This document shows, one piece after another, positions 2,456-21,249 of a stretch of DNA of 39,204 nt (position 1 is its first letter; each line of letters opens with the position of its first letter). The DNA is from Desulfobulbaceae bacterium (GTDB taxonomy: Bacteria > Desulfobacterota > Desulfobulbia > Desulfobulbales > Desulfocapsaceae). The stretch lies in NCBI GenBank assembly GCA_026988015.1, contig JALSMA010000061.1:1-39204 (forward strand), written 5' to 3'. The translations under genes were made by a program, and so were the position numbers. The notes beneath the pieces are model-generated. The model saw nothing but the letters and a program-made list of their open reading frames with translations. It searched no databases and had not been told where the DNA came from.

Positions 2456-3294
2456 TCAGGCAGTAACCGCTTCCTGAATACGAATGAGCTGAATCAGGAG
2501 CTGTTCTATGGCATCAAGGGGAATGGAGTTGGGTCCGTCACAGAGGGCAGTGTCTGGTGTGGGGTGTACTTCCATGAACAGTCCGTCGATACCGGCTGCT
2601 ACTGCTGCTCGTGACAGAGGTGCTATAAATTCCCGCTGCCCGGCGGATGAGCCTCCGGCGCCGCCGGGAAGTTGCACAGAGTGGGTTGCATCAAAAATTA
2701 CGGGACAACCGAAACTGCGCATCACTGGGAGCGCGCGTATATCTACGACTAGGTTATTGTAGCCGAAGCTTGCACCCCGTTCGACGAGCATGGTTTTGGT
2801 TCCACCGGCACCGCTGAGCTTATTGACACCGTGCGCCATATCCCACGGAGAGACAAACTGGCCTTTTTTGAGGTTGACCGGTTTTTTTGTCTCTGCAGCA
2901 GCAACTAGAAGATCGGTCTGTCTGCAGAGAAAGGCGGGAATCTGGATGATATCAAGTACCTCTGCCGCTGCTTTTACCTGGCTGACATCGTGTACGTCAG
3001 AAATTACAGGAACCTGGAGCTCTGCACGGATTCTTGAAAGGATATTCAAGCCTTCATCAAGTCCGGGGCCGCGATAGGAGTCTAAGGAGGTTCTGTTGGC
3101 TTTGTCAAATGAGGCCTTGAATACGTAGGAGATACCGAGTCGTGCGCATATTTCCTGCATATTTCCTGCAATCCTGCGGGCTAGGTCCTCAGATTCTAGG
3201 GCACAGGGACCGGCAATCAGGAGCAGGGGAGATCCGGGGCCAACACATATTTCCGTCCCGTCAGGTTTTGCAATGACAACAGGAGTAACAGGCA

Positions 3295-3295
<1 letters not shown>
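2456..3295 (-). CDS. kdsA: 3-deoxy-8-phosphooctulonate synthase (KdsA)
   Basis: KdsA condenses phosphoenolpyruvate with arabinose-5-phosphate to form Kdo-8-phosphate, the first committed step of Kdo synthesis for lipopolysaccharide. The 279-residue protein shows family signatures in order: LLIAGPCALES, FKASFDKANRTS, RGPGLDEGL, PVISDVHDVSQV, DIIQIPAFLCRQTDLL, NLKKGQFVSPWDM, FDATHSVQLPGG and MEVHPTPDTALCDGPN. Its ATG overlaps the stop of pyrG by one base (TAATG) and is preceded by AAGGTGAG, so translation is probably coupled. Confidence 0.97.
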
Positions 3296-4980
<1,685 letters not shown>

Positions 4981-7604: not shown

Positions 7605-9413
7605 CTATCTTTTTGAACCGGGCAGGATCAGGCTGAAGCTTGCCCCCTGGCCCGGTTCACTTTTCAATTCCACCGTACCGCCATGGCTGTCAGCGATATG
7701 CTTGACAATGGCCAGTCCTAGGCCGGTGCCGCCTTGTTTTCTGCTTCTTGCCTTATCGCAGCGATAAAATCGTTCAAAGATACGTTCCTGATGCTTTTTC
7801 TCAATGCCTGGTCCCTGGTCCTGAACACTGATACAGATATCTGTTGGCGAATCGTTATGGTTTCTGGCGCTGAGAGTAATAGTTGAATTTTCTGGGCTGT
7901 AGGATACAGCATTTGTGAGCAGGTTGATAATGGCCTGTTCGAGCATTGCACAGTTGACCAATGCTTGGAGAGTATCGGGAACACATTCCATATTGATAGT
8001 GATATTCTTCTGCTTGGCCCCAACCAGACAAGTCTGTATGGCCGATTCAAGAATTGCTTCAATGGCTTCAGGCTGCAGATCCATCTGTTGTTTTTCAGAA
8101 GAGTCTTCTATTCGGGCAAGAGTCAGGAGGTCATCCACAATGGCATCAAGCTGCATTCCCTGACGTTGAATGATCTGAAGAAACTGGGTGGCAGCATCGC
8201 GGTCATCTATGGCTCCATCGAGCAGGGTTTCAACATAGCCGCGAATGGCAGTGATGGGTGTTTTGAGCTCATGGGAGACATTGGCAACAAACTCCTGACG
8301 AATATTTTCCAGTAGAGTGATTCGGGTAAGATTGTGAAGCACCACCAGGCTTCCGAGCCTGCTGTTTTCATCATCGTAAAGTGGGTGGGCATGGACTCGC
8401 AGGCTCATTTCCCGGGCATTTTCCATGAGGATGAGATCTTTAGTCATGGTCTCTCTTGAGGCCAGTGAGTTGTCTAGGAACTGCTGCAGTCCTCTATTTC
8501 GAATGACCCCCTCGAAAAGCATACCTTGAACACTGCTGTGGTCGATGCAGAGGATTTCAGCTGCTGCTTGATTAACGCGGATAATAGTATGGTCAGGGGC
8601 AATGGCAAGAACTCCATCGGTCATACTGCTGAAGACAGCTTCAAGCTCATTGCGTTGCTGGCTGATTATCTTGATCCGGCCATTGAGCTGTTCGGCCATA
8701 TTGTTTAGAGAGTGAGAGAGCTCTGTCATCTCACGGGGAACAGCCGTATCCTGAATGATGATGGGTTGCTCAGTGTTTCCATTGGCAAGTCTTTCAGCAC
8801 CTTGCCGCATTTTTTCCAGAGGGCGACTGATGCGGCGGGCCAGATAGTAAGACAGACCTGCAGCCAGGAAGGCAATGAAAACGATTCCGTAGAACAGTTT
8901 TGTACGAATGACCGAAAGCACAGCGTCAAGGGTGGCACCTGAAACTGAAAGGCGGAGAACGCTATCATGGGGAGAATCGGGTTTGAGAGGGATCGCCACA
9001 TAGAGCATATTCTGACTCAGGGTTTTACTGAATCGCAGGGATGCACCTACCTTTCCTGTGAAAGCTGTCTGGATTTCAGGGCGTGCCCCATGGTTGTCCA
9101 TTTGCTCCGGGTTTTCATTGGAGTCGGCAAGTACCCTGCCATCTCGGGCGACCACTGTGATCCGTGTGGCTGCAGCCCTTCCAGTCTGGCGGCAGAAATC
9201 CTGAAGAAAACTCTGCTTGCCCTGCAACAGCATATTGATATGGGGCCTCAGTAGCAGGGCACGGTCTTTGATATCTTCCTCCATCTCATGGTAGTGGAAG
9301 GATTGGATCATCCGGGTACCGTACCAGCTGGTGGCAGAGATGGAGAGAACAATGATAAAGAGGGCTGCTGGGAAAATCTGCCAGAAAAATCGTCTGTTTT
9401 TCATAAATGACAA
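7605..9413 (-). CDS. phoR: Phosphate-regulon-type sensor histidine kinase PhoR
   Basis: This 602-residue membrane kinase has TM1 (about 9-30), a periplasmic region (31-170), TM2 (172-192), a HAMP domain (about 193-245), a PAS domain (about 255-365), a HisKA domain with VSHELKTP (phospho-acceptor His381), and an ATPase domain with the N-box NLLTNA (497-502), DQGPGI and GGTGLGLAI. That layout is typical of PhoR proteins with a periplasmic sensor region. The assignment to phosphate rests on the phoB neighbour upstream and the Pho-box-like repeats near phoB and the pst genes. A 203-base gap containing a dispersed repeat separates it from phoB. Confidence 0.88.
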   Translation of the reverse strand: MSFMKNRRFFWQIFPAALFIIVLSISATSWYGTRMIQSFHYHEMEEDIKDRALLLRPHINMLLQGKQSFLQDFCRQTGRAAATRITVVARDGRVLADSNENPEQMDNHGARPEIQTAFTGKVGASLRFSKTLSQNMLYVAIPLKPDSPHDSVLRLSVSGATLDAVLSVIRTKLFYGIVFIAFLAAGLSYYLARRISRPLEKMRQGAERLANGNTEQPIIIQDTAVPREMTELSHSLNNMAEQLNGRIKIISQQRNELEAVFSSMTDGVLAIAPDHTIIRVNQAAAEILCIDHSSVQGMLFEGVIRNRGLQQFLDNSLASRETMTKDLILMENAREMSLRVHAHPLYDDENSRLGSLVVLHNLTRITLLENIRQEFVANVSHELKTPITAIRGYVETLLDGAIDDRDAATQFLQIIQRQGMQLDAIVDDLLTLARIEDSSEKQQMDLQPEAIEAILESAIQTCLVGAKQKNITINMECVPDTLQALVNCAMLEQAIINLLTNAVSYSPENSTITLSARNHNDSPTDICISVQDQGPGIEKKHQERIFERFYRCDKARSRKQGGTGLGLAIVKHIADSHGGTVELKSEPGQGASFSLILPGSKR

Positions 9414-9615: not shown

Positions 9616-10314
9616 CTATTCTTTTAAACGATAACCGATTCCACGAACCGTTTCAATGTAACTTCCCATGGTACCAAGTTTCTTTCGTAGTCCGAATATC
9701 TGAACATCAATAGCTCGTGAGGTGATAAGGTAGTCGTAGCCACGGATCTTGTCGATTATCTGCTGCCGGCTGTAGACCCATCCGGGGCGTCCGGCCAGTT
9801 GTTCAAGGATGGTGAATTCTGTGGCGGTGAGGTGGATCTGTTTTCCGTCGACCAGCACCTCATGCCGTCCCGGATGGATGACCATGGAGTGGATATGGAT
9901 GCTCTCATTATCGGGTCGCTGTTTTTTAGTGATCTTTTCCTGTTTTCTGCGAAGAATAGCCTGAACTCTTGCAATGAGCACCCGGGGCGAGAATGGTTTG
10001 GTCACATAATCATCTGCGCCACAGCTAAGACCGGTGACAATATCGTCTTCCTCGCTTTTAGCTGTGAGCATAATAATGGGCGGTTGAATAAAATCGGTTT
10101 TAGCCCGAATGATACTGCAGACCTCCATCCCATCTTTTCCAGGCAGCATCAGATCGAGAAGGATCAGATCAATTTTTTCCCGGTCAAGGATTTGCAGAGC
10201 ATCCTCTCCGGAGTCAGCGCAGGTCACATTAAATCCTGACTTGATTAGGTTATAGCTGACGAGCTGCTGGATGTCTGCATCGTCTTCAACGACGAGGATA
10301 CTTGCTTTTCCCAC
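9616..10314 (-). CDS. phoB: Response regulator PhoB (OmpR family)
   Basis: This is the DNA-binding regulator paired with PhoR. The receiver domain (residues 1-120) has the acidic pair Asp11/Asp12, phospho-acceptor Asp54 in LLDLMLPGKDG, and the switch lysine in DDYVTKPF. The C-terminal winged helix (about 135-230) ends GSYIETVRGIGYRLKE, as in PhoB. The start chosen is GTG at 10314, because AGGAG lies 7 bases upstream and the protein then begins directly with the receiver domain (232 residues). The frame remains open to a TTG at 10386 that has no ribosome site. Tandem 11-bp repeats at 10414-10457 suggest autoregulation. Confidence 0.92.
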   Translation of the reverse strand: MGKASILVVEDDADIQQLVSYNLIKSGFNVTCADSGEDALQILDREKIDLILLDLMLPGKDGMEVCSIIRAKTDFIQPPIIMLTAKSEEDDIVTGLSCGADDYVTKPFSPRVLIARVQAILRRKQEKITKKQRPDNESIHIHSMVIHPGRHEVLVDGKQIHLTATEFTILEQLAGRPGWVYSRQQIIDKIRGYDYLITSRAIDVQIFGLRKKLGTMGSYIETVRGIGYRLKE

Positions 10315-10413
10315 TGACGGTCTCCTGAAACAGTGCTTTAAATGTTGAGTATAATTCCTAGTTGAACCTCCAATCCTACCTGTCAATTTTCAGGTTGCAA
10401 CAAAAAATCGTCC

Positions 10414-10457
10414 CCTAATGAAACCCTAACAAAATCGTAACACTATTCTAAAGCAGC
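10414..10457 (+). promoter_or_regulatory. Putative Pho box (four 11-bp repeats) upstream of phoB
   Basis: The units are CCTAATGAAAC, CCTAACAAAAT, CGTAACACTAT and TCTAAAGCAGC, each starting exactly 11 bases after the last. The pattern YYTAAYNNNAN matches the repeats before phoU and pstS. An 11-bp repeat period is the known spacing of PhoB half-sites. Relative to phoB itself the repeats point the opposite way. Confidence 0.65.
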
Positions 10458-10508
10458 CAAAAGAGATTGCCGCAGATTTCAGGGTGCTGCGGGCTTCGAA
10501 TGGAGGCA

Positions 10509-11348
10509 TCAGTGACTGGAGTTTTTGAAAGAGTAGAGCCAATCGTAACAGTCATTTTCAAAGTCGGCAAAAGATTCGTCCTGCTTTAACAGGGTCTCGT
10601 TGAAGATTGCAACTGCCGTGTTGTGTCGTGCCCGCAGAGAATGCAACAGAAATGATTTCACTGGGCGCTTGTTATGGTACAGACAGGACGTAAGGGCCCA
10701 GGATCTGGCGTAGACCTCACCTGAGCGAATCCTTTTATGTGGGTTTTTGACTAATCCTGTGAAGTTGAGAGTCTGGTCTCTATCCTGGAGGTAGTGCACA
10801 AGCTGGAGCCGTTCAATATTGCCGGGAGGTGTCTTGAGCCCCCCAGGCAGCGTTTCCATCAGGCATGCTATGCCTTCATCCGCCCAGAAGGGGAGTTTCC
10901 TGGAGTCAGAGTACGCGTTGTGTAATGCGGCATGGGTGGCTTCATGGCGAAGCACTGTTGCAAACCGGGGATCGTCGAGTTGGCCAATGAGGAATAGAAT
11001 GTTTTCGGGCGAGTCGTAATGTCCAGTACTGCGATGCCGAGTTTGACTTCTCCTTAGAAAATATCTTCCAATGCTGTCTTTGTCTGAAAAAATGAGTATG
11101 GGGACAGGAGAAGTGGGAAGTGGAAACTCAAGCCAGTGCTGAAGATTTTTCCAGACATTAGTGCCTTGCCCGAGAATTTCCAGACAGCGATCTCCCTGTT
11201 CCAGATGAAGGATCGTGAAATAGTTATTACCGCAGAGTGGCTTATTGTTCTGGTATTTCGACAGATATGGCTCTGGATTTGGGAAGAGTGGTAGCGTGCA
11301 GCTGTTGATCAGGAGCAGCGGCAGGAGCAGGATAAAAATAGTTTTCAT
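10509..11348 (-). CDS. Lipoprotein with gluzincin-type metallopeptidase motif
   Basis: This is a 279-residue protein with a lipoprotein signal peptide (LLLINSC, lipid-anchored Cys17). The central domain has the zinc motif HEATH (His135, Glu136, His139) and a possible third ligand Glu158 in FWADEG. That spacing is typical of gluzincins of the peptidase MA/DUF1570 kind. Substrate is unknown. It is the third gene of a minus-strand envelope trio, and its first 107 bases overlap the 3' end of the gene upstream in another frame, which suggests coupling. The start is fixed by the signal peptide; no clear ribosome site is visible. It could be an inactive or structural homologue, but all three metal ligands are present. 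Confidence 0.75.
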   Translation of the reverse strand: MKTIFILLLPLLLINSCTLPLFPNPEPYLSKYQNNKPLCGNNYFTILHLEQGDRCLEILGQGTNVWKNLQHWLEFPLPTSPVPILIFSDKDSIGRYFLRRSQTRHRSTGHYDSPENILFLIGQLDDPRFATVLRHEATHAALHNAYSDSRKLPFWADEGIACLMETLPGGLKTPPGNIERLQLVHYLQDRDQTLNFTGLVKNPHKRIRSGEVYARSWALTSCLYHNKRPVKSFLLHSLRARHNTAVAIFNETLLKQDESFADFENDCYDWLYSFKNSSH

Positions 11349-12285
11349 GGTATTTGGAGAAAATGGCTTCGATTAAATTGTCCTTTTCATCGTCAGTCGC
11401 CTTTTCCAGTATACCTCTTCTTTCCAGTCGCTGCCAGGTGCTGGTGACATCATTGTTGAAAAGGGTTAATGAAATTCGAACCCGTGCAAGTTTCTCTACC
11501 TCCTCACTGAGCCCGCCCAGTGCAAGTAACAGGTTGGGTTCTTTACTTTCCTTGAGCCTGAATCCAAGTTCATACTGCTCTAACAGGTAATGGACTATTT
11601 TCCTGGAGAGTTGGGTTCTTTTGGTATTTATCTGGTCATTTTCCCATTCCAGGACCAGAGAGAAATCTTTGGATTTATAGAGGGAGTCAAGATCAAGCAG
11701 GTTGCTCATCCGGTTTCCCATGATTTCTTCGACATGTCTGGTGAAGGGGTTGGGGTGCCACTGCCTCGGGCCAAAGGGAGTGGACAGGCCGACTCGCTGC
11801 CAGCTTTCATTGATGATACCGGCACAGAACAGCTGATCGGTTTTCCCAGGTTCATAGCTCATGCTGTAGTCAAATTGAGCATTCTGGATCTGTGTATTGG
11901 TTAACATTTCCTGTAAGACACGTGCAGCTGCAATTTGGCTGTCCTGTGATGTTATGGCACGAAAAACTGCGGCCCGATGAAACTTTTTAAAACGATCTTC
12001 GAGAAGCTCAGAGTCAGCTTTTCCACTGAACACCCCTCCGATCATTAATTGATTGTCTGTATTACGAAAGATCATTTCTGAATGGCTGAACGGGGTCTTA
12101 ACTACCCGTGTGTCGGACCTTGCGGCCAGAGCAATCAGCCATGATTCGACTCCACCGTCTGCAGTTATGACAATATCGCCTTCTCGAAACAGCTCGGCAT
12201 CTGGCAAGGTGGGGTCTGGTTGCAAGGGCATGGTACAGTTGGTGAGAAACAATAACAGCAGAGGGAGAACAGGGTTTTTTTTCAT
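11242..12285 (-). CDS. YiiX-like permuted NlpC/P60 (papain-like) lipoprotein
   Basis: The protein begins with a lipoprotein signal (LLFLTNC, Cys17). Next comes a domain starting FREGDIVIT, with His68 in PFSHSEMIF and Cys154 in QLFCAGII. The order His before Cys, with the GD start, is the signature of circularly permuted NlpC/P60 proteins such as YiiX and YebB, which are amidase or lipid-hydrolase relatives. The C-terminal half (about 200-347) is a predicted helical region with no recognised domain. An in-frame upstream start at 12417 adds 44 residues without a signal peptide and was rejected. The gene follows the barrel-like gene by 79 bases and overlaps the next lipoprotein gene by 107 bases. 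Confidence 0.75.
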   Translation of the reverse strand: MKKNPVLPLLLLFLTNCTMPLQPDPTLPDAELFREGDIVITADGGVESWLIALAARSDTRVVKTPFSHSEMIFRNTDNQLMIGGVFSGKADSELLEDRFKKFHRAAVFRAITSQDSQIAAARVLQEMLTNTQIQNAQFDYSMSYEPGKTDQLFCAGIINESWQRVGLSTPFGPRQWHPNPFTRHVEEIMGNRMSNLLDLDSLYKSKDFSLVLEWENDQINTKRTQLSRKIVHYLLEQYELGFRLKESKEPNLLLALGGLSEEVEKLARVRISLTLFNNDVTSTWQRLERRGILEKATDDEKDNLIEAIFSKYHENYFYPAPAAAPDQQLHATTLPKSRAISVEIPEQ

Positions 12286-12364
12286 GGATCGGCCGTGGAA
12301 GAAGAGGCTGGAGTGCCAGATGGCGGTTGACACCATCCGGCACTGTGGTTGAACGAGGTGGCGC

Positions 12365-13588
12365 TTACCAGGAGTGACCGAAAGTGAGAGTGAATCCACG
12401 ATTTTTAAGGCCATCAAGGCTGTCTACATACATCAGACCCAGGTTGTAGTTTTCCCATCCGTAATAATCGAGAGCAAAGGAAATACCGGTGCTACTGTCT
12501 TCCATATAATTGGGCATATCCAAGGCCACAGTATAATCAAGACCAGTTGTAAAAAAAAGAGATTCTGTCAGGGGCAGGATATATTGAAATTCCATGGTGT
12601 TCATGTTGATATATTTTTCACCTGTGATTTCTTCGTCTCCGTTAAGATTCCGGTCATGGGTGAAGAGATTCGACAACGTGAATCCTCCTACGGGAGTTGT
12701 CAACCCTGCATAGATACTAAGCCCTGGAACCAATCTGGTCTGTGTTCTGTTCTCATAGTCGTTGGTGGAAATTTCGAGAAGACCAGCAAGGGCGAAATCG
12801 ATACCGTTTTCCTCCTGATTTAAAAATTGGTAGCCGGGAATCAAGAGCAGGCCAAAAGACTCAGTGTCTTGGGAATCATAAATACCAGTACCTTCAAGGC
12901 TGGTATAGTACACTTGATTATCGATATAAAAATTACCCTTGTCGGCACTAAAATTAACGGCCAGTGATTTAACATCGGATTCTCGGCCAAGGGTAGGAGT
13001 TAGTTCCATTTCACTCTCCTTGACACTGCCCTGAATGGATGTGTTAAAGTTCCACTCGGGTAGATCTGATGGTTCATAGAGTATGCCGGCTGATGACAAT
13101 TGGGATGCTGGTGAGGAGGTGTTCCATTTTTCAAACGCTCTTCTCGTCTTGGCGGCCTCTTTTCTCTTACGTTGTCTTTCCTGTGTTAATTCAAAGGCTA
13201 ACGTGCGATCAGCAGCACGTTGTTCTTCTAGCTGATCTATACGCATTTGCTCGGGATCATCCAAAGACGTATGTGCTGATGTGTTAGTGCTGCAGGTTCC
13301 CTCATTAGTAACAACATAACAGGTATTTCCAGTGCCGGTTTCCTTATACCATTGCTGCTGTTCCTGGGTAGTTGAGCCGGTAGAGCATGTTAGGTTAATC
13401 GTCTTGGTGTAAGTCTGATACCATCCGCCTAAGTCACCACATTCACCAATGTAGGTTGCTGTGTGATGCGTATGCGTAGTTGCAAAAACATCGTTTGCTG
13501 CAACAAATGACGTAATACAGAAAGTTGCCAGAAAGGTACAACCTGCCCCGGTTTTAATGAGTTTTCTCCCCATGGTCAGTTTCTCCAT
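12365..13588 (-). CDS. Predicted outer-membrane beta-barrel protein, unknown function
   Basis: The start at 13588 is supported by AAGGAGAG about 7 bases upstream; the open frame extends 90 bases further without support. The product has about 407 residues: a signal peptide ending near VFA, a short Thr/Cys-rich region with five cysteines, a charged coiled-coil-like stretch rich in Glu, Arg and Gln (about 110-165), then alternating polar and aromatic strands to a C-terminal FGHSW. A terminal aromatic residue after such strands is the usual outer-membrane insertion signal. I recognise no named family. It is first in the envelope trio. A large inverted repeat lies about 155 bases upstream. Confidence 0.7.
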   Translation of the reverse strand: MEKLTMGRKLIKTGAGCTFLATFCITSFVAANDVFATTHTHHTATYIGECGDLGGWYQTYTKTINLTCSTGSTTQEQQQWYKETGTGNTCYVVTNEGTCSTNTSAHTSLDDPEQMRIDQLEEQRAADRTLAFELTQERQRKRKEAAKTRRAFEKWNTSSPASQLSSAGILYEPSDLPEWNFNTSIQGSVKESEMELTPTLGRESDVKSLAVNFSADKGNFYIDNQVYYTSLEGTGIYDSQDTESFGLLLIPGYQFLNQEENGIDFALAGLLEISTNDYENRTQTRLVPGLSIYAGLTTPVGGFTLSNLFTHDRNLNGDEEITGEKYINMNTMEFQYILPLTESLFFTTGLDYTVALDMPNYMEDSSTGISFALDYYGWENYNLGLMYVDSLDGLKNRGFTLTFGHSW

Positions 13589-14000
13589 TTTCTTCTCTCC
13601 TTGAAAAGGTGTTTTTATGGGAATTAAGGTAATAAAAATCCCCGCTTGATGATTTAGATAGCAAAATATGTGCCGCATTAAGATGAAAGAGATCTGCTTG
13701 GAATATCAAGGTGTTCGGGGATTTTTTTCAGGGGAAGTTATTGTAACAGTGGCAAGCGGTTGATATAAACCGGTTGCCACTGGTTTATATCAACCGCTTG
13801 CCGCTGTTACTTTGGCATTTATCTATCTTTTTGATAGTGCTGTTTGCGGGAGAGTAGTATAAAATAATTTTTGTTGAAAAGTTGGTGGCTTGCGGTTAGA
13901 TGTTGGGCTTTACGTATTGGGCAGAGTCGGAATCCATGTTATGGGTACCGTCTCCTGTCATTTATTATTCCGTATTGGATAACTTTTGAGAGGTGAAAAC
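13589..14000. other. Divergent intergenic region with a large inverted repeat
   Basis: About 410 bases lie between the barrel-like gene (minus) and the NTF2-like gene (plus). The dominant feature is the 29-bp inverted repeat at 13743-13810. No convincing ORF is present. Promoters for both genes must lie here, but I cannot assign them with confidence. Confidence 0.6.
13743..13810. repeat. 29-bp nearly perfect inverted repeat with a third half-site in the loop
   Basis: The left arm 13743-13771 and the right arm 13782-13810 are complementary at 28 of 29 positions; the exception can form a G-U pair in RNA. The loop region (13770-13781, CCGGTTGCCACT) is itself an inverted near-copy of AGTGGCAAGCGG in the left arm, so a second, shorter hairpin is possible. 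It sits between divergent genes and could be an operator, a cruciform or a transcription insulator. Confidence 0.85.
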
Positions 14001-14471
14001 ATGGGAAATACAATCACGACAGATGAAATAGCACAGGCACAGCAGATCTGGGGGGAAGGGATCGTTGTAATTGGTAAAGCCTTTAGTGATAAGGGTGATT
14101 TTGTGCAGGCTGCGGAGCAGCATATCGATACCCTGTATAATTTCAAGGAAGGAGATGTTCTCTTCAAGCCCACCAAGGCAGCAGATGTCCAGTTTCGCCT
14201 AGACCGGGAAGGAGCATTGTCCTATTTTGTTGGAGGCAATGACAGTTATAAGGAAGATCACGGTTTTGCTATTACGCCCTGGACCAATGTTCGCTTTGAA
14301 AACGTCGGCACATCCATCCATGGAGACTATGCCGTCGCTATGGGGAACTATTATTTTACTCAGGTTGATGGTACAGAGGTGAAAGTTGAGTACACGTTTG
14401 GATACATTAAAGGCGCAGATGGCAAGTTAAGGATTAACCTGCATCACTCATCACTTCCCTATGCGAAATAG
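14001..14471 (+). CDS. NTF2/SnoaL-like fold protein, function unknown
   Basis: This 156-residue cytoplasmic protein begins at ATG 14001, with GAGAGGTG 5-6 bases upstream; the open frame starts 15 bases earlier at a TTG. It resembles small single-domain proteins of the SnoaL/NTF2-like (CaMKII-association-like) fold, with FKPTKAADVQFR, ALSYFVGGN, NVRFENVGTSIHGDYAVAMG and an ending INLHHSSLPY. Homologues are, from memory, often labelled phosphoribosyl-AMP cyclohydrolase in databases. The sequence shows no HisI zinc-binding motifs, so I do not accept that label. It stands alone, and its stop codon abuts a MITE-like element. Confidence 0.7.
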   Translation: MGNTITTDEIAQAQQIWGEGIVVIGKAFSDKGDFVQAAEQHIDTLYNFKEGDVLFKPTKAADVQFRLDREGALSYFVGGNDSYKEDHGFAITPWTNVRFENVGTSIHGDYAVAMGNYYFTQVDGTEVKVEYTFGYIKGADGKLRINLHHSSLPYAK

Positions 14472-14613
14472 TGCTTGTCAAGAAATGACTTTTTCCTTCT
14501 GACTCTTTGTTGCTATGAAGATTTTATCCCTCGAAATATCAAGTATGTGCCTGTGGTCAAATTTCTTCTGTGTCTCAGTTGACAAGGAAAAACCTTATTG
14601 CCGGACGGACACT
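14470..14613. repeat. MITE-like element, copy A
   Basis: The element begins AGTGCTTGTCAAGAAATG and ends GCCGGACGGACACT, so its ends are inverted repeats of one another (AGTGTCCGTCCGGC when reversed). The interior TTTTTCCTTCTGACTCTTTG and the later AAATTTCTTCTGTG match the element at 27239-27382. There is no ORF inside. It starts at the stop codon of the NTF2-like gene. Confidence 0.7.
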
Positions 14614-14664
14614 GAGTAAGCAGATTTCTTTGTTGACTTGATCATCCGGAAAACTGCTGGAACA

Positions 14665-14699
14665 CATGGCACTCTGATCTGCATATCCAGAGTGTCATG
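14665..14699. terminator. Hairpin between convergent genes
   Basis: CATGGCACTCTG (14665-14676) pairs with CAGAGTGTCATG (14688-14699), 12 bp with one G-U pair. It lies between the NTF2-like gene and the convergent cytochrome b561 gene. No long U tract follows on either strand, so termination is only a suggestion. Confidence 0.4.
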
Positions 14700-14763
14700 A
14701 AAATATCACTCCCCAGGATCAGCGAGACTGCAACTCATGGTTATTTGTGGCTGCCACCAGTGA

Positions 14764-15369
14764 TCAGGATTTTTTCTCTTTTGTGCCGGTAATCATTGCT
14801 TTGATAAGGTTCTCCCGATGGCATACACTTGAAAGTATAGCTCCAGTGACATGAAGAAAAATGAGGAATAAAAGTGTAAAAGCCGCTCCTTCGTGTATGT
14901 CTTCCCAGAATTCATCTTCATATTTTGCTTCATCATGCTCATCACTGTCTGCGTAGGCATTTGTGACAAAAGTGAACTCCTGTACAGACAGCTCCTGCCC
15001 CTCATATTTATAGGCGATGTGACCAGACACAGATACCAAAAATGTCATAATCAGTAAAAAAAGAGCCATCCATCCTGCAGCGGGGTTGTGGCCGACATAA
15101 TATCTCGGAACCCCCTGGGTAAGATCTTTTATATATTGAAAGGCCTGGGCAGGAGGATAAAGGAAATTTGTGAAACGGGCATGTTTACTCCCTGTAAAAC
15201 CCCATACCAATCGCGAAAGGATTACACCAAAGATCGCATATCCAGCGTAAAGGTGAATCTTGTATTCCTCATCACCTGAGAGAAATGCTATCAGCACCAG
15301 TATCACAACAGCCCAGTGGCCAATGCGTACAGGTAAATCCCAAACTTGAATGTGTTTTTTATGTGTCAT
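14764..15369 (-). CDS. Cytochrome b561-family membrane protein
   Basis: This 201-residue protein has four predicted membrane helices (about residues 16-32, 40-57, 97-118 and 163-182). Histidines typical of the di-haem b561/nickel-hydrogenase b-type family are His18 (VRIGHWA), His39 (IHLYAGY), His117 and those in EDIHEG and LIFLHVTG. An acidic loop (EHDEAKYEDEFWEDIHEG) sits before the last helix. Such proteins pass electrons between quinones and a c-type cytochrome or other periplasmic partner. The usual partner gene is not adjacent. The gene diverges from phoU, and the phoU Pho-box-like repeats lie upstream of it. Confidence 0.85.
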   Translation of the reverse strand: MTHKKHIQVWDLPVRIGHWAVVILVLIAFLSGDEEYKIHLYAGYAIFGVILSRLVWGFTGSKHARFTNFLYPPAQAFQYIKDLTQGVPRYYVGHNPAAGWMALFLLIMTFLVSVSGHIAYKYEGQELSVQEFTFVTNAYADSDEHDEAKYEDEFWEDIHEGAAFTLLFLIFLHVTGAILSSVCHRENLIKAMITGTKEKKS

Positions 15370-15708
15370 CTGATTGTTCCCCGTCTCTCCATTGTTTATT
15401 TTGGATAACAGTAAGCGCCATTTTCTTTCTGGCAGGGCGATCGTCTTTTCATAACACTGTAGCCGATGAGCATTTTTGACTCAACAGAGTTTTGTCCGGT
15501 GATATCTCAGGTGTAAGCGGAAAATATTGTCAATGGCCACCTTCTACTAAATGTCCCAGGCACTACCGATAAATGGATTGGCAGCTGGGATTTCGTATCG
15601 ACGTCACACTTTCCTAACGCAATCCTAATGTTACTCTAATCAAACCCTAAAACAGATAGGTTCTAAATGGGCTGAACATTTACTTACAATCATTCAGGAG
15701 AATATATT
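15370..15708. other. Divergent intergenic region carrying the phoU Pho box
   Basis: About 339 bases lie between cytochrome b561 (minus) and phoU (plus). It holds the four-unit Pho-box-like repeat at 15613-15656, then a TACAAT that may serve as a -10 at 15685-15690, and AGGAG for phoU. No ORF is credible. Confidence 0.6.
15613..15656 (+). promoter_or_regulatory. Putative Pho box upstream of phoU-pstCA
   Basis: Four consecutive 11-base units are visible: CCTAACGCAAT, CCTAATGTTAC, TCTAATCAAAC and CCTAAAACAGA. The arrangement matches the sites near phoB and pstS and points toward phoU. PhoB binds direct repeats with an 11-bp period, so phosphate-starvation control of this operon is likely. Confidence 0.75.
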
Positions 15709-16371
15709 TTGGCCCATCAGCTGACGTTCCACAGGGAAATAGAAAAGGTAAAAAAGAAGTTTCTGGTACTTGGTTCTCTGGTGGAGGATCGGCTTCAGAA
15801 GGCTAGTCTTGCCATGCAGAACCGGGACCCGGATCTGCTTCAGGAGATCATCGGCTCTGACTGGGAAATAGATGAGATGGAGATCGAGGTGGAGGAAGAG
15901 TGTCTTAAAATTCTTGCGCTCCATCAGCCTGTGGCCAGCGATCTTCGCCTCTTGGTGGCCATGATCAAGATCAACAATGAACTGGAGCGGATAGCTGACA
16001 ATGCCGTTAATATTGCCAAGCGTCTTCAGACCATCAACAAAGATTCTACTCTGGCTTTTTCCATTGACTATCAACCCATGTTCGGCACGGTTCTGAAGAT
16101 GTTCAAACTCAGTCTTGACGCTCTGGTCACTGAAAATGCAGAGCTGGCACGGCAGATCTTTTTTGAAGATGAGGTGGTGAATCAACTTCGGAACGAGGCA
16201 TACAGGAGTGTGACCCATGAGTTAAACAAAGAGCCTGGTCATGCAAAATGTCTGGTAAACCTCTATCTGTTGGCGCGCCATCTAGAACGGATGGGAGATC
16301 GGATAAAGAATATAGCAGAAGAGGTTATTTATCTGGTTGAGGGAAAGATCGTACGTGGGGAGATGCATTAA
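15709..16371 (+). CDS. phoU: Phosphate transport system regulator PhoU
   Basis: This 220-residue all-helical protein has two PhoU repeats: the first with VASDLRLLVAMIKINNELERIADNA and the second with AKCLVNLYLLARHLERMGDRIKNIAEE. The E(R)xxD metal-binding signatures are seen in both. PhoU links the Pst transporter to PhoR signalling and restrains phosphate uptake. The start is TTG with AGGAG 8 bases upstream. It is the first gene of phoU-pstC-pstA, whereas in enterobacteria phoU comes last. The stop is one base before the pstC ATG. Confidence 0.95.
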   Translation: MAHQLTFHREIEKVKKKFLVLGSLVEDRLQKASLAMQNRDPDLLQEIIGSDWEIDEMEIEVEEECLKILALHQPVASDLRLLVAMIKINNELERIADNAVNIAKRLQTINKDSTLAFSIDYQPMFGTVLKMFKLSLDALVTENAELARQIFFEDEVVNQLRNEAYRSVTHELNKEPGHAKCLVNLYLLARHLERMGDRIKNIAEEVIYLVEGKIVRGEMH

Positions 16372-16372
16372 G

Positions 16373-17761
16373 ATGTCTCCATCACTTTTTCTCATTGTCC
16401 TGCTGGGGATGGCCTCATATGTATATATGCAGGGAAAGCGAAGGGCCTTCCGCCTTGCAAGTTCCGAGTCGGATTCCACAAAACTTCATTCCCGTCCCGG
16501 TTATTACGGTATGTTAACCGCCCTCTGGTGTTTTCTTCCAGCGCTTCTTGTGTTTTCGTTCTGGATGATGTTTTCAGGTTCTGTCCTGACGACGCTTGCG
16601 TTGAGGACACTGCCGGATACCATGCAGAACATTCCGCCAAATCAGCTTAATCTGCTGATTAATGATCTCCACAATTTGATAGCAGGCCACGTTGCAGCAA
16701 AGGATATTGACCCTGTCCTGCAACTGGCTGCAGAACAGTATCTGGGCATGGAACGAATCAGTAGGATTTCCCTTGCTGTCGTGATGTTTGCAGTTGCCCT
16801 GTTTTTCTCAAGCCTGATATACAGACGAATTACTCCACGGTTGCGTGCCAGGAACCATGTGGAACGGATTGTTCAGACTGGTCTGATGATTTGTTCTGGC
16901 CTTGCAGTTTTGATCACCATAGGAATTGTTGTGTCAGTGATGTTTGAGTCTATTCGATTTTTTCAGCAGGTACCTGTCACCGACTTTCTTTTTGGTCTCA
17001 AGTGGAGTCCGCAGATGGCGATGCGTGAAGATCAGGCCGGAAGTTCGGGAAGTTTCGGGGCGATTCCCATTATGGCTGGAACCTTTATGATTTCCGGCAT
17101 TGCCCTTTCAGTGGCTGTACCCATTGGACTCATGTCGGCCATTTACCTTTCCGAGTATGCTCCACCGAGGGTTCGTGCCTGGGCCAAGCCTGTGATGGAG
17201 ATTCTGGCAGGTGTTCCCACCGTTGTGTATGGTTTTTTTGCAGCTCTGGTGGTGGCACCGTTTATTCGTAACAGTGGGGAGTTGCTGGGGCTCGATGTCT
17301 CATCTGAAAGTGCACTGGCTGCCGGGCTGGTGATGGGTGTAATGATAATTCCATTTATTTCTTCACTTTCTGATGATGTTATTACCGCAGTTCCACAAGC
17401 CATGCGGGATGGCTCCTATGGACTTGGTGCCACCAAGAGTGAAACAATCAAAAATGTCATTATTCCTGCTGCTCTTCCTGGAATTGTAGGCGGGGTGCTT
17501 CTTGCAGCCTCACGGGCAATTGGGGAAACCATGATTGTGGTGATGGCGGCTGGACTTTCTGCAAATTTAACAGCGAACCCTCTCCAGGCTGTGACCACGG
17601 TCACGGTACAGATTGTGACTCTGCTGGTTGGTGATCAGGAGTTTGACAGTCCCAAAACTCTGGTGGCTTTTGCTCTGGGGCTACTGCTCTTTCTGGTTAC
17701 TCTGGTTCTGAACGTTATTGCACTCTATGTTGTGCGGAAATACCGTGAAGAATATGAATAG
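16373..17761 (+). CDS. pstC: Phosphate ABC transporter permease PstC (long form)
   Basis: PstC and PstA form the inner-membrane channel of the high-affinity phosphate importer. The start at 16373 follows the phoU stop by one base; the frame is open to 16337 inside phoU. At 462 residues it is well above the roughly 320 of E. coli PstC. The extra length is an N-terminal region with additional membrane helices and a loop (residues about 1-190). The permease core has QAGSSGSFGAIPIMAGT, the EAA-type loop GSYGLGATKSETIKNVIIPA and SRAIGETM. Long PstC proteins are a known subgroup. Confidence 0.94.
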   Translation: MSPSLFLIVLLGMASYVYMQGKRRAFRLASSESDSTKLHSRPGYYGMLTALWCFLPALLVFSFWMMFSGSVLTTLALRTLPDTMQNIPPNQLNLLINDLHNLIAGHVAAKDIDPVLQLAAEQYLGMERISRISLAVVMFAVALFFSSLIYRRITPRLRARNHVERIVQTGLMICSGLAVLITIGIVVSVMFESIRFFQQVPVTDFLFGLKWSPQMAMREDQAGSSGSFGAIPIMAGTFMISGIALSVAVPIGLMSAIYLSEYAPPRVRAWAKPVMEILAGVPTVVYGFFAALVVAPFIRNSGELLGLDVSSESALAAGLVMGVMIIPFISSLSDDVITAVPQAMRDGSYGLGATKSETIKNVIIPAALPGIVGGVLLAASRAIGETMIVVMAAGLSANLTANPLQAVTTVTVQIVTLLVGDQEFDSPKTLVAFALGLLLFLVTLVLNVIALYVVRKYREEYE

Positions 17762-17822
17762 TGCAGATCATGGATGCAGCTGGTTTGGATGGTTTTGTTG
17801 TGAATGGGATTTGAAGGAGTAG

Positions 17823-19100
17823 ATGATGCAGTCTCGAAAAAAAGAAACAAGTATGGATAAAATGAATATCGGTCTGGCAAAACGATATCGGAAGGAACGA
17901 CGTTTTCGTCTGTTCGGGCTGGCTGCAGTCTTTGCCAGCATAACTTTTCTCGGTATACTGTTTGTCTCCATTGCAGCCAATGGCTGGACAGCCTTTCAGC
18001 AGACTGAGATTCTGCTCGATGTTCATTTTGATACCGCCGAATTTGACGTGGACAATCTCTACTCAGTCAATTATGGAGCTTTGGTAAAAAACAGTATGCG
18101 TTCACTTTTCCCGGAGGTTAAGGGGCGCAGTGATAAGCGAGATCTCTATAGACTTATGAGTTCCGGTGCTGTCTATATCCTACAGGACATGGTGATGAAG
18201 GATAGCGGTATTATCGGATCTACGCAGCAGATATGGCTTCCGGCAGATGATGAAGTTGATATGTTGATGAAGGGCCACATCTCGCGGGACGTGACTGAAG
18301 GTGATCGCCGTTTAAACGATAAACAGATCAGCTGGGTAGATACTCTTGTGGCAGAGAAACGCCTTGAGAAAAAGTTTAATACAACGTTTTTCACAGCAGG
18401 AGATTCGCGGGAGCCGGAACTGGCTGGAATTCGTGGGGCTGCAGTGGGATCGCTGTTTACCCTGGCGGTGACTCTGCTTTTGTCATTTCCAATCGGAGTT
18501 GCCACTGCTGTGTATCTTGAAGAGTTTGCTCCGCGTAATAAGTGGACTGATCTGGTTGAAGTAAATATTAATAATCTTGCCGCCGTACCTTCCATAGTCT
18601 TTGGGCTTTTGGGTCTTGCTGTATTTCTGAATATTTTTGGTATGCCGCGTTCCGCACCGTTGGTTGGTGGTCTGGTTCTCACTCTGATGACTCTTCCAAC
18701 CATTATTATTGCCTCACGGGCGGCATTGAAATCTGTGCCACCGTCTATTCGTGAGGCCGCACTGGGAGTTGGCGCATCCAAGATGCAGGCCATAACGCAC
18801 CATATTCTCCCCCTCGCCCTGCCAGGAATGTTGACAGGTACGATTATCGGAATGGCCCAGGCACTCGGTGAAACGGCACCGTTACTTATGATCGGGATGG
18901 TGGCATTTATTGTGGATGTTCCGGGGTCTGTGACTGATCCATCTACGGTCTTACCGGTACAGATTTATCTTTGGGCAGATTCCCCTGAACGGGCCTTTGT
19001 TGAGAGAACTTCTGCCGCCATTATGGTTCTGCTTGCCTTTCTTATTTCCATGAATGCAATAGCTGTTTTCCTACGTAGGAAATTTGAGCGCCGCTGGTAG
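17823..19100 (+). CDS. pstA: Phosphate ABC transporter permease PstA (long form)
   Basis: This second permease subunit has 425 residues, longer than the usual 280-300. The extra part is a periplasmic insert (about residues 60-190) between the first membrane helix and the permease core. The core has FPIGVATAVYLEEFAP, NINNLAAVPSIVFGLLGL, the EAA loop AALGVGASKMQAITHHILPL and QALGETAPLLMIG. AAGGAG precedes two adjacent ATGs (17823 and 17826); the second has the better spacing. It follows pstC by 61 bases and probably ends the first transcript, since pstS has its own Pho-box-like site. Confidence 0.94.
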   Translation: MMQSRKKETSMDKMNIGLAKRYRKERRFRLFGLAAVFASITFLGILFVSIAANGWTAFQQTEILLDVHFDTAEFDVDNLYSVNYGALVKNSMRSLFPEVKGRSDKRDLYRLMSSGAVYILQDMVMKDSGIIGSTQQIWLPADDEVDMLMKGHISRDVTEGDRRLNDKQISWVDTLVAEKRLEKKFNTTFFTAGDSREPELAGIRGAAVGSLFTLAVTLLLSFPIGVATAVYLEEFAPRNKWTDLVEVNINNLAAVPSIVFGLLGLAVFLNIFGMPRSAPLVGGLVLTLMTLPTIIIASRAALKSVPPSIREAALGVGASKMQAITHHILPLALPGMLTGTIIGMAQALGETAPLLMIGMVAFIVDVPGSVTDPSTVLPVQIYLWADSPERAFVERTSAAIMVLLAFLISMNAIAVFLRRKFERRW

Positions 19101-19116
19101 CTGGATGCACTTTCCC

Positions 19117-19160
19117 TGTAACGAAGCTCTAATGGAAGCCTAATCAAATCGTAACAATTT
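19117..19160 (+). promoter_or_regulatory. Putative Pho box upstream of pstS
   Basis: Four 11-base units are present: TGTAACGAAGC, TCTAATGGAAG, CCTAATCAAAT and CGTAACAATTT. It begins 17 bases after the pstA stop and points toward pstS. A separate, stronger promoter for the abundant binding protein is a sensible reading. Confidence 0.75.
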
Positions 19161-19233
19161 CAAAGTAAATAGAGGGACGTTGATGTATCAAAAGTCTGTT
19201 TGTTTACTAATTATAATCTTTAAGGAGAAAAAA

Positions 19234-20292
19234 ATGTTGAAGAAAGGTTTAGTTTTTGTTGCAGCGGCATCCATTGCTGTATCTGCTGTGTCCAGTGCTT
19301 ACGCAGCATCTGGTCGTGATTATATCTCTGTTGTGGGTTCCTCCACAGTGTACCCTTTCGCTACCACTGTAGCAGAACAGTTTGGGAAAACTACAAAGTT
19401 TAAGACCCCGAAAATTGAGTCAACGGGTTCCGGTGGCGGAATGAAACTCTTTTGTACCGGTTCCGGGATTGACACTCCAGATATCACCAATGCTTCAAGA
19501 CGAATTAAATATTCTGAGTATGAAAAATGTCAGAATAATGGCGTGAAGAAAATAACAGAGGTGAAGATCGGCTATGATGGAATTGTTATGGCCAACTCAA
19601 AAGAAGAAGCTCAAGTGACATTTACTAAAAAAGATATCTTTCTGGCCCTGGCCAAAGATGTGCCTGATCCAAAAGGTAGTGAAAAACTGGTTGCTAACCC
19701 TTATAAAACCTGGAAAGAGGTGAATCCTTCTCTTCCTGATACTAAAATTGAAGTGCTGGGACCTCCTCCCACTTCCGGTACACGTGATGCTTTTGTTGAG
19801 CTTGCCATGGAAGGCGGTTGTAAACAGATCGGCTGGATCAAGGCTTTAAAGAAAAAAGACAAAAAATATTTCAAATCCGTCTGCCACACTGTTCGTGAAG
19901 ATGGTGCGTATATTGAAGCAGGTGAAAATGATAATCTGATTGTCCAAAAGCTCACCGCAAACCCCAAAGCTTTTGGAATCTTCGGTTTCAGTTTTCTTGA
20001 CCAGAATGGAGACAAGATCCAGGGTTCAATTGTCGGTGGTGTTAGTCCCACCTTTGAGAATATTGCTGCAGGAAAATATCCTGTTTCCCGTCCTCTGTAT
20101 TTTTACGTAAAGAACTCCCATGTCGGTGTCGTTCCCGGAATGGCAGAGTTTTTAAACGAATTCACAAGTGAAAAAGCCTGGGGAGAAGATGGATATCTTT
20201 CAGACAAAGGACTTATCCCCATGCCTGAAGCTGAGCGCAAACAGTTTGCAGCAGATGTTAAAGGATTAAAAGCATTAGTTCTCACAAAATAA
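19234..20292 (+). CDS. pstS: Phosphate ABC transporter substrate-binding protein PstS
   Basis: This periplasmic phosphate receptor has 352 residues from the ATG at 19234, which has AAGGAG 6 bases upstream; an ATG 54 bases earlier has no ribosome site. The signal peptide is cut near AYAASG. Phosphate-binding segments are visible: VGSSTVYPF, ESTGSGGGMKLF, ITNASRR, YDGIVMAN and PPPTSGTRDAFVEL. It lies between pstA and pstB, with its own Pho-box-like repeat upstream and a hairpin downstream, so it is probably expressed more strongly than its neighbours. Confidence 0.96.
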   Translation: MLKKGLVFVAAASIAVSAVSSAYAASGRDYISVVGSSTVYPFATTVAEQFGKTTKFKTPKIESTGSGGGMKLFCTGSGIDTPDITNASRRIKYSEYEKCQNNGVKKITEVKIGYDGIVMANSKEEAQVTFTKKDIFLALAKDVPDPKGSEKLVANPYKTWKEVNPSLPDTKIEVLGPPPTSGTRDAFVELAMEGGCKQIGWIKALKKKDKKYFKSVCHTVREDGAYIEAGENDNLIVQKLTANPKAFGIFGFSFLDQNGDKIQGSIVGGVSPTFENIAAGKYPVSRPLYFYVKNSHVGVVPGMAEFLNEFTSEKAWGEDGYLSDKGLIPMPEAERKQFAADVKGLKALVLTK

Positions 20293-20355: not shown

Positions 20356-21249
20356 ATGGAAACAATGGGCGCAGTGGCTGATATTGGTGATTTGGTATTT
20401 CCGGGAGTGGAAACAATGGTTCGTGAGGAGAGTCGGCAGGAAGAAAAGGTGGAGCGGGAAGATCGCAGTACCGTGGGCCGTCCGTTTGTGGATGATGCTC
20501 GAATGACCTGTCGTGACGTCAATGTATATTACGGTGAGAAACACGCCATCAGAAACGTTTCAATAGATGTGGGACGTAATGAAGTGTTGGCCATGATAGG
20601 CCCTTCCGGTTGCGGGAAATCTACATTCCTTCGCTGTTTAAATAGAATGAACGATACCGTGGACAGCTGTCGGGTCTTTGGCGATATCCAGCTCGACAGC
20701 TTGAATATCTATGACAAATCTGTGGATGTGGTTCCCCTCCGTGCCCAGGTGGGGATGGTTTTTCAGAAACCTAATCCGTTCCCAAAATCCATTTATGACA
20801 ATGTGGCCTATGGCCCCAAAATTCATGGCCTGGCGTCATCCCGGACGGATCTTGATGGTATGGTGGAGAGTTCTCTTAAAAAGGCAGGACTCTGGAAAGA
20901 GGTGAGTGATCGTCTGGATCAGCCGGGAACTGGACTCTCCGGTGGCCAGCAACAGCGTCTCTGTATTGCCCGTGCCATTGCTGTTCGTCCCGAAGTTATT
21001 CTCATGGATGAGCCATGTTCAGCACTTGATCCCATTGCTACGGCAACTGTGGAGGGTCTCATTGCGGAACTTCAGGAACAATTTACCATTGTGATAGTCA
21101 CCCATAATATGCAGCAGGCCGCGAGGGTATCACAACGCACTGCCTATTTTCATCTTGGTGACCTGATTGAGGTGGGAAGTACTGATCGGGTATTTACCAA
21201 TCCACGTCACAGACTCACTGAAGATTATATAACTGGACGTTTTGGTTGA
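20356..21249 (+). CDS. pstB: Phosphate ABC transporter ATP-binding protein PstB
   Basis: This is the ATPase that drives PstSCA. It has Walker [10 protein letters not shown] (82-90), a Q-loop region [10 protein letters not shown] typical of PstB, signature LSGGQQQR (194-201), Walker B VILMDEP (214-220) and switch VTHNMQQA. At 297 residues it has an acidic N-terminal extension of about 45 residues before the usual domain start ([11 protein letters not shown]). Two starts are possible: ATG 20356, and ATG 20416 with a better GGGAGTGG ahead. The immediate surroundings of both ATGs share GGAAACAATGG. A strong terminator follows. Confidence 0.96.

Follow-up and report, generated by a model that had tools for sequence, protein, structure and literature searches.

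The operators of the response regulator PhoB, the Pho boxes, are described as at least two direct-repeat units of 11 nt, each with 7 conserved and 4 less conserved positions, in the available text of PMC4415409. For Escherichia coli PhoB, the accessible part of PMC3973317 describes a bond of Arg201 to guanine, places Glu177 and Glu191 facing sigma, and lists the substitutions W184R, G185R, V190M and D192G as abolishing activation. The PhoB of Desulfovibrio vulgaris (DVU1083) was assigned the box (c/t)GT(n)AC by DNA-affinity-purified-chip (DAP-chip) and gel shift, the gel-shift-validated site holding GTTAC twice at 11-bp spacing (available text of PMC3333781 and PMC6456213), and the cyanobacterial regulator SphR the box CTTAACCT, of 8 bp plus a 3-bp linker (PMC1906773, in its available text). 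The stretch analysed here (the window) has 39,204 nt and is one contig (JALSMA010000061.1) of the 3.15-Mb genome of a Desulfobulbaceae bacterium. Three arrays of 11-bp units are present in it, at phoB, phoU-pstCA and pstS. It is considered likely, with a rough probability of 0.85, that these arrays are Pho boxes bound by PhoB, which would replace the -35 element at phoU-pstCA and pstS, and that the first array would regulate phoB from a reversed position.

The arrays and their genomic positions

As originally predicted, each array holds four 11-base units with TAA in register, the cores starting on the + strand at 10416, 10427, 10438 and 10449 (array 1), at 15615, 15626, 15637 and 15648 (array 2), and at 19119, 19130, 19141 and 19152 (array 3). 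The pattern TAA-N8 repeated four times had exactly three matches in the window on both strands, and none in 100 dinucleotide-preserving shuffles. The strict pattern STAAY-N6-STAAY-N6-STAA matched six times, two per array (shuffle mean 0.00), and three TAA at N8 alone matched at the same six places (shuffle mean 0.17). Over the 12 units TAA was invariant, the base before it was C in 9 and G in 3, the second base before it C in 8 and T in 4, and the base after it C in 5, T in 5 and A in 2; A was common at the unit end. Because of these counts the core is written YYSTAAY rather than the CYTAAY first proposed, which had the invariant TAA right and misfits CGTAAC. Only the core is common to the units, and the spacers differ. 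The predicted departure from the E. coli core was also borne out, as CTGTCAT-N4-CTGTCAT with up to 3 mismatches matched the window 8 times (3.96 expected) and never at the arrays. With four period-11 units each, all three arrays show the direct 11-nt repetition described for Pho boxes.

A scan of the whole genome with the strict pattern gave 9 matches, which make up five arrays, compared with 2 matches for the reversed-pattern control. All five arrays precede phosphorus genes: phoB, phoU-pstCA, pstS, a phosphonate cluster and a calcineurin-like phosphoesterase gene. A looser pattern (B for S) brought in one more array, which lies between two trp-type genes and is a simple tandem repeat of 11 bp. 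The location expected of a Pho box, upstream of phosphorus-acquisition genes, was observed for 5/5 of the strict and 5/6 of the looser arrays. The claim that such arrays occur only near phoB, phoU and pstS holds within the window and not for the genome, where the two additional strict arrays, both at phosphorus genes, are what a genome scan had been predicted to find upstream of other phosphate genes.

The fourth array precedes, in the same orientation, a gene that matches TIGR03223 (putative phosphonate metabolism protein) barely above cut-off. PhnC and PhnD genes, both above the NCBIfam cut-off, start about 0.5 kb past this gene, and the cluster (locus L119) further contains a PhnK-like ATPase that stays below cut-off, as well as PhnE, G, H, I, J and L, which were assigned by inspection; no NCBIfam model matched the PhnI- and PhnJ-like proteins at 1e-10. 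The TIGR03223 gene and the phn genes are likely to form one putative operon. The fifth array, on contig C78, lies upstream of the phosphoesterase gene, also on the same strand.

Arrays, -10 register and PhoB residues in relatives

The 20 named relatives found via PhoU are metagenome bins, several of them labelled Desulfocapsa or Desulfobulbaceae. A PhoB match was present in 46/60 family genomes, and the best 30 of the 46 were taken as loci. Many relatives have phoB and phoU as divergent neighbours, without the five-gene block that lies between them in the window. Forty-six divergent pairs were compared (the window; L011-L024, L027, L028 and L061; L065-L088; L124-L127). With TTAA units allowed, an array of at least three units pointed toward phoU in 35/46 of these regions and toward phoB in 0/46; block-shuffled regions gave a mean of 0.06 regions with an array, and a maximum of 1. 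Kept apart from this count were L062-L064 (the phoB DNA of L062 and L011 is identical), L010, L060 and L123 (phoB and phoU on separate contigs), L029 (phoB not found), and L025 and L026, in which phoU is not divergent from phoB and the arrays point toward phoB. Judged from these loci, the reversed placement of the array at phoB is a property of the divergent phoB-phoU group.

Upstream of phoU, 33/39 regions had an array of at least three units (21 with three units, 12 with four). In 19/21 three-unit arrays TANNNT was found at +25 from the start of the last TAA; within the range of 8 to 35 each of the other offsets had it in no more than 2. Among the 12 four-unit arrays, the hexamer at +14 matched TATAAT in at least 4/6 positions in 8 cases and TANNNT in 3. 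Because 25 = 11 + 14, the three-unit arrays seem to hold a degenerate fourth slot. In the E. coli phoA stretch, which was found identical in E. coli records, TATAGT stands at 14 nt from the last core. The candidate -10 hexamers of phoU and pstS in Table 1 were placed by the offset that is fixed in relatives. Overall, a fixed distance to the -10 hexamer in place of a -35 element is clear in relatives, weak in the genome of the window and absent for array 1 in its facing direction.

The PhoB proteins were compared, in a gap-free alignment, with the C-terminal domain of E. coli PhoB in a sequence identical to PDB 3t72. At positions 177, 184, 191, 194, 198, 200 and 201, E. coli PhoB has Glu, Trp, Glu, Thr, His, Arg and Arg. 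All 30 family PhoBs have Gln177, Arg184, Thr191, Ala194, Gln198 and Gly201, with Phe (29) or Tyr (1) at position 200. The window PhoB (9616-10314, -) thus carries Arg at the Trp184 position and has lost the acidic residues 177 and 191, as in the rest of the family. Arg201 was replaced in 80/80 PhoB rows (79 distinct), by Gly in 70: Gly was present in 30/30 family and 18/18 named-locus PhoBs, and the 32 PhoBs from other families had Gly (22), Ser (6), Ala (2), Pro (1) or His (1). Since residues 201 and 177/184/191 are replaced, both the base contact and the sigma contact, as far as these are described in the available text of PMC3973317, are changed. The sigma contact may differ in this PhoB clade, and the absence of Arg201 agrees with that of a fixed G in the core, as a correlation only.

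In the phylum sample, a PhoB match at 1e-60 was obtained in 34/148 genomes, and stretches around 32 of the 34 non-self places were taken. Strict TAA arrays were observed in 16/32 of these phoB loci from other families (reversed-sequence control 5/32, block shuffle mean 0.37), and no strict TAA array in the other 16/32. In 8/32 loci the array was followed on its own strand, within 400 nt, by a phoB, phoU, phoR or pst match, which in 4 of the 8 was phoB. As loci from other families of the order and phylum carry such arrays, the TAA-type core is wider than this lineage. The original prediction of a lineage-specific PhoB site keeping the 11-bp spacing is supported as to the period and the changed core, and its reading as a PhoB site by the gene positions; lineage-specific was too narrow in view of these loci and of the SphR and D. 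vulgaris boxes.

The phoB-side array

In the direction that array 1 faces, the nearest gene is 3.5 kb away, and it is the only one of the five block genes on the strand of array 1. Two arrays are present in four genomes (the window, G055, L015 and L016). G055 (L123) has an array at the place of array 1, and its block genes are split between the ends of two contigs that are not joined: four follow the phoB-side array, and one precedes the phoU-side array. The two arrays of L015 flank a different gene, a response regulator (2943-3998, -) with an HD-type motif seen by eye, and those of L016 are separated by about 220 nt, which hold none of the block genes. The start of the phoB-side array is 99, 99, 99 and 101 nt away from a reference point at phoB in the four genomes; this point is the first query residue, which precedes the GTG at 10314 by one codon. 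The clade of the window, G055 and L016 had a support of 0.987 and the placement of L015 was weak (0.224), so that the two-array state of L015 could be either independent of that of the other three or shared with it. As their PhoBs are 98% identical, the window and G055 count as little more than one case. A recent duplication that left a target-site repeat was rejected as the origin of the insert, as the two arrays share cores only and L016 has no gene block between its arrays.

In the + direction of the phoB-side array TANNNT was absent at +14 in 4/4 two-array genomes, and in the window the hexamer at +25 is AGATTT, which is not TANNNT. Array 1 is on these grounds disfavoured as promoter of a + strand transcript. 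A candidate phoB promoter (Table 1) was recognised by aligning the regions upstream of phoB from eight relatives chosen by us, in which the reversed array cores are also kept. A start about 7 nt past TAGGAT would put the cores of array 1 near -50, -61, -72 and -83. Positions around -50 to -83 are usual for an activator that touches the alpha subunit; array 1 is reversed, however. The sequence is compatible with a positive effect of array 1 on phoB, with a negative one and with none.

It is put forward tentatively, at somewhat less than even odds, that one directional array aimed at phoU-pst might also control the divergent phoB from behind; in this lineage, with its two arrays and the genes between them, the phoB-side copy holds a constant position some 100 nt from phoB. 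Such autoregulation would act through a reversed, class-I-like PhoB operator, which the E. coli model of head-to-tail binding with sigma contact does not predict, and it would occur in a PhoB clade in which the residues for sigma contact (177, 184, 191) and guanine contact (201) are all replaced. No description of this phoB-phoU arrangement was found in the literature searched, in which subscription papers were mostly outside the scope; judged by their titles, the papers returned by one of the searches do not concern this bacterial group.

Table 1. Coordinates of the arrays, candidate promoter elements and genes (window positions unless a locus is named)
Feature	Position	Strand	Remark
Array 1, four 11-bp Pho-box-like units	10414..10457	+	phoB upstream side, reads away from phoB
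Array 2, four 11-bp units	15613..15656	+	upstream of phoU-pstCA, same strand
Array 3, four 11-bp units	19117..19160	+	upstream of pstS, same strand
Candidate -10 of phoU, TCTAAA	15662..15667	+	4/6 to TATAAT; 14 nt after last TAA start
Candidate -10 of pstS, TAAATA (weak)	19166..19171	+	3/6 to TATAAT; 14-nt offset
Candidate -35 of phoB, TTGCAA	10395..10400	-	TTGCA invariant in 8 aligned relatives
Candidate -10 of phoB, TAGGAT	10373..10378	-	16 nt from TTGCAA; GTANNNT invariant in the same 8
phoR-like histidine kinase	7605..9413	-	Pfam; NCBIfam below cut-offs: PnpS 376.5 bits (cut-off 400), phoR_proteo 288.2 (cut-off 334.2)
phoB, OmpR-family response regulator	9616..10314	-	Pfam Response_reg and Trans_reg_C
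Five-gene 5.2-kb block between phoB and phoU	10458..15612		same genes in G055; sole Pfam match a cytochrome b561-like gene, 14764-15369
phoU	15709..16371	+	Pfam PhoU; TIGR02135 above cut-off
pstC-like permease	16337..17761	+	open reading frame limits, start unrefined; DUF3708 and BPD_transp_1
pstA-like permease	17823..19100	+	DUF3333 and BPD_transp_1
pstS-like phosphate-binding protein	19234..20292	+	PBP_like_2; TIGR02136 162.2 bits, below cut-off 206.6
pstB-like ATPase	20356..21249	+	ABC_tran; name inferred from position
Phosphonate uptake / carbon-phosphorus (C-P) lyase-type cluster	L119 379-8947	-	behind three-unit array

Proposed mechanism and comparison with known Pho boxes

In the mechanism proposed here, phosphorylated PhoB would occupy the arrays in head-to-tail order, with each 11-bp unit taken by one protein. 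The array would replace the -35 element at phoU-pstCA, pstS, the phosphonate cluster and the phosphoesterase gene, where RNA polymerase would be recruited by PhoB to a -10 hexamer that starts 14 nt past the last core, the spacing of E. coli phoA. The YYSTAAY core in place of CTGTCAT would accompany a changed recognition helix (Arg201 to Gly). Array 1 would descend from an array common to divergent phoB and phoU, this lineage having two arrays with the gene block between them; about 100 nt upstream of phoB and just upstream of the candidate TTGCAA-16-TAGGAT promoter, it would most likely regulate phoB from its reversed position.

Several observations weigh against this mechanism. The four same-strand arrays of the genome have weak hexamers at the expected place (TCTAAA, TAAATA, TAAACA and TACTAG, with 4, 3, 3 and 3 of 6 positions matching TATAAT), none of them TANNNT. 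For the three-unit arrays of relatives, a TATAAT similarity of at least 4/6 was found in 15/21 at +25 but also in 13/21 at +12, TANNNT occurred at +14 in just 10/26 hand-picked arrays from other families, and the offsets were scanned only after the pattern had been noticed by eye. No array of at least three units was present in 11/46 divergent phoB-phoU pairs. G055 holds three further looser-pattern arrays (C45, C107 and C143; L158, L159 and L160) without an obvious phosphorus gene ahead. Finally, SphR is said to conserve the E. coli DNA-contact residues although its box is of the TAA type (available text of PMC1906773), and because of this Arg201 need not decide the core.

The strict pattern also failed as a family-wide regulon finder, with 55 matches in the 59 other family genomes compared with 58 for the reversed control (summed by us); TTAA units, which this pattern excludes, are common in other genera. 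Of the 55 matches 29 were fetched, 10 of their downstream proteins being run against Pfam and the others judged by sequence, and only 14 of the 29 were at recognisable phosphorus genes (pstC, pstS-like, phoU, PhoU_div). Two of the remainder face porins and 13 face no recognised phosphorus gene.

In two relatives the array precedes a porin gene by about 200-300 nt, namely in L057 (1807-3024, +), whose product matches Porin_5, and in L058; these are possibly phosphate porins. By eye, the neighbourhood of L158 in G055 seems to be that of the C78 array, but the L158 array faces the ferredoxin-type gene there.

The arrays could be PhoB sites of which array 1 is a functionless relic at phoB, left behind as genes came between two arrays that serve phoU. 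Array 1 is directed away from phoB, lacks TANNNT at +14 in its facing direction and has a single, distant block gene on its strand, as this explanation would have it. All four of its cores are intact, however, and the distance to phoB is the same in the window, G055, L015 and L016, while the sequence after the phoB-side array varies: the window and G055 have the five genes there, L015 has a single gene for a response regulator, and L016 has none. A relic is for these reasons regarded as unlikely.

A different binding protein was also considered, namely another OmpR-family regulator of the same genes. OmpR-family regulators generally use direct repeats, and the best of 75 NCBIfam models for the window protein, TIGR02154 (PhoB), gave 226.3 bits, below its curated cut-off of 296.2 bits, which counts against PhoB and in favour of such a regulator. 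This is nevertheless improbable, as the arrays accompany phoB, phoU and pst genes in relatives and the D. vulgaris PhoB binds a close sequence in vitro, according to the available text of PMC3333781 and PMC6456213. The looser-pattern array between the trp-type genes is a simple tandem repeat, and the same or chance periodicity might be suspected elsewhere; the differing spacers, the shuffles without arrays and above all the recurrence in 35/46 phoB-phoU regions refute this, and its probability is negligible.

Read as Pho boxes, the arrays provide a usable operator model for phosphate control in a sulfur- and sulfate-metabolising group whose named relatives are metagenome bins. They also allow a sequence-based prediction of the regulon, extended in this genome to the phosphonate genes and the phosphoesterase. 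Two questions can be put to a natural test at these loci: in what way the PhoB recognition helix determines the core of the Pho box, and whether PhoB arrays are able to act on promoters behind their facing direction.

Like the E. coli phoA Pho box, the arrays consist of 11-bp head-to-tail units; the 14 nt from the last core to the -10 hexamer at phoA are also the distance to the weak candidate -10 hexamers after arrays 2 and 3. They are unlike it in the core, which is CTGTCAT with a guanine contacted by Arg201 in E. coli (PMC3973317, in its available text) and YYSTAAY together with Gly201 here, and the PhoB loop differs as well, with Glu177, Trp184 and Glu191 in E. coli compared with Gln, Arg and Thr in 30/30 family PhoBs. 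The D. vulgaris box likewise consists of direct repeats, at the pst genes of a sulfate-reducing bacterium (available text of PMC3333781 and PMC6456213); 3/12 window units fit it (CGTAAC, TGTAAC, CGTAAC), whereas 9/12 have C, not G, before TAA and do not. The SphR box shares the period of 11, the TAA core and the tandem repetition of at least three units, but its consensus, in the available text of PMC1906773, has T before TAA where the window has C or G, and it belongs to a different phylum. Overall, the arrays are very probably a known kind of switch, a PhoB operator, with an altered, TAA-type core.

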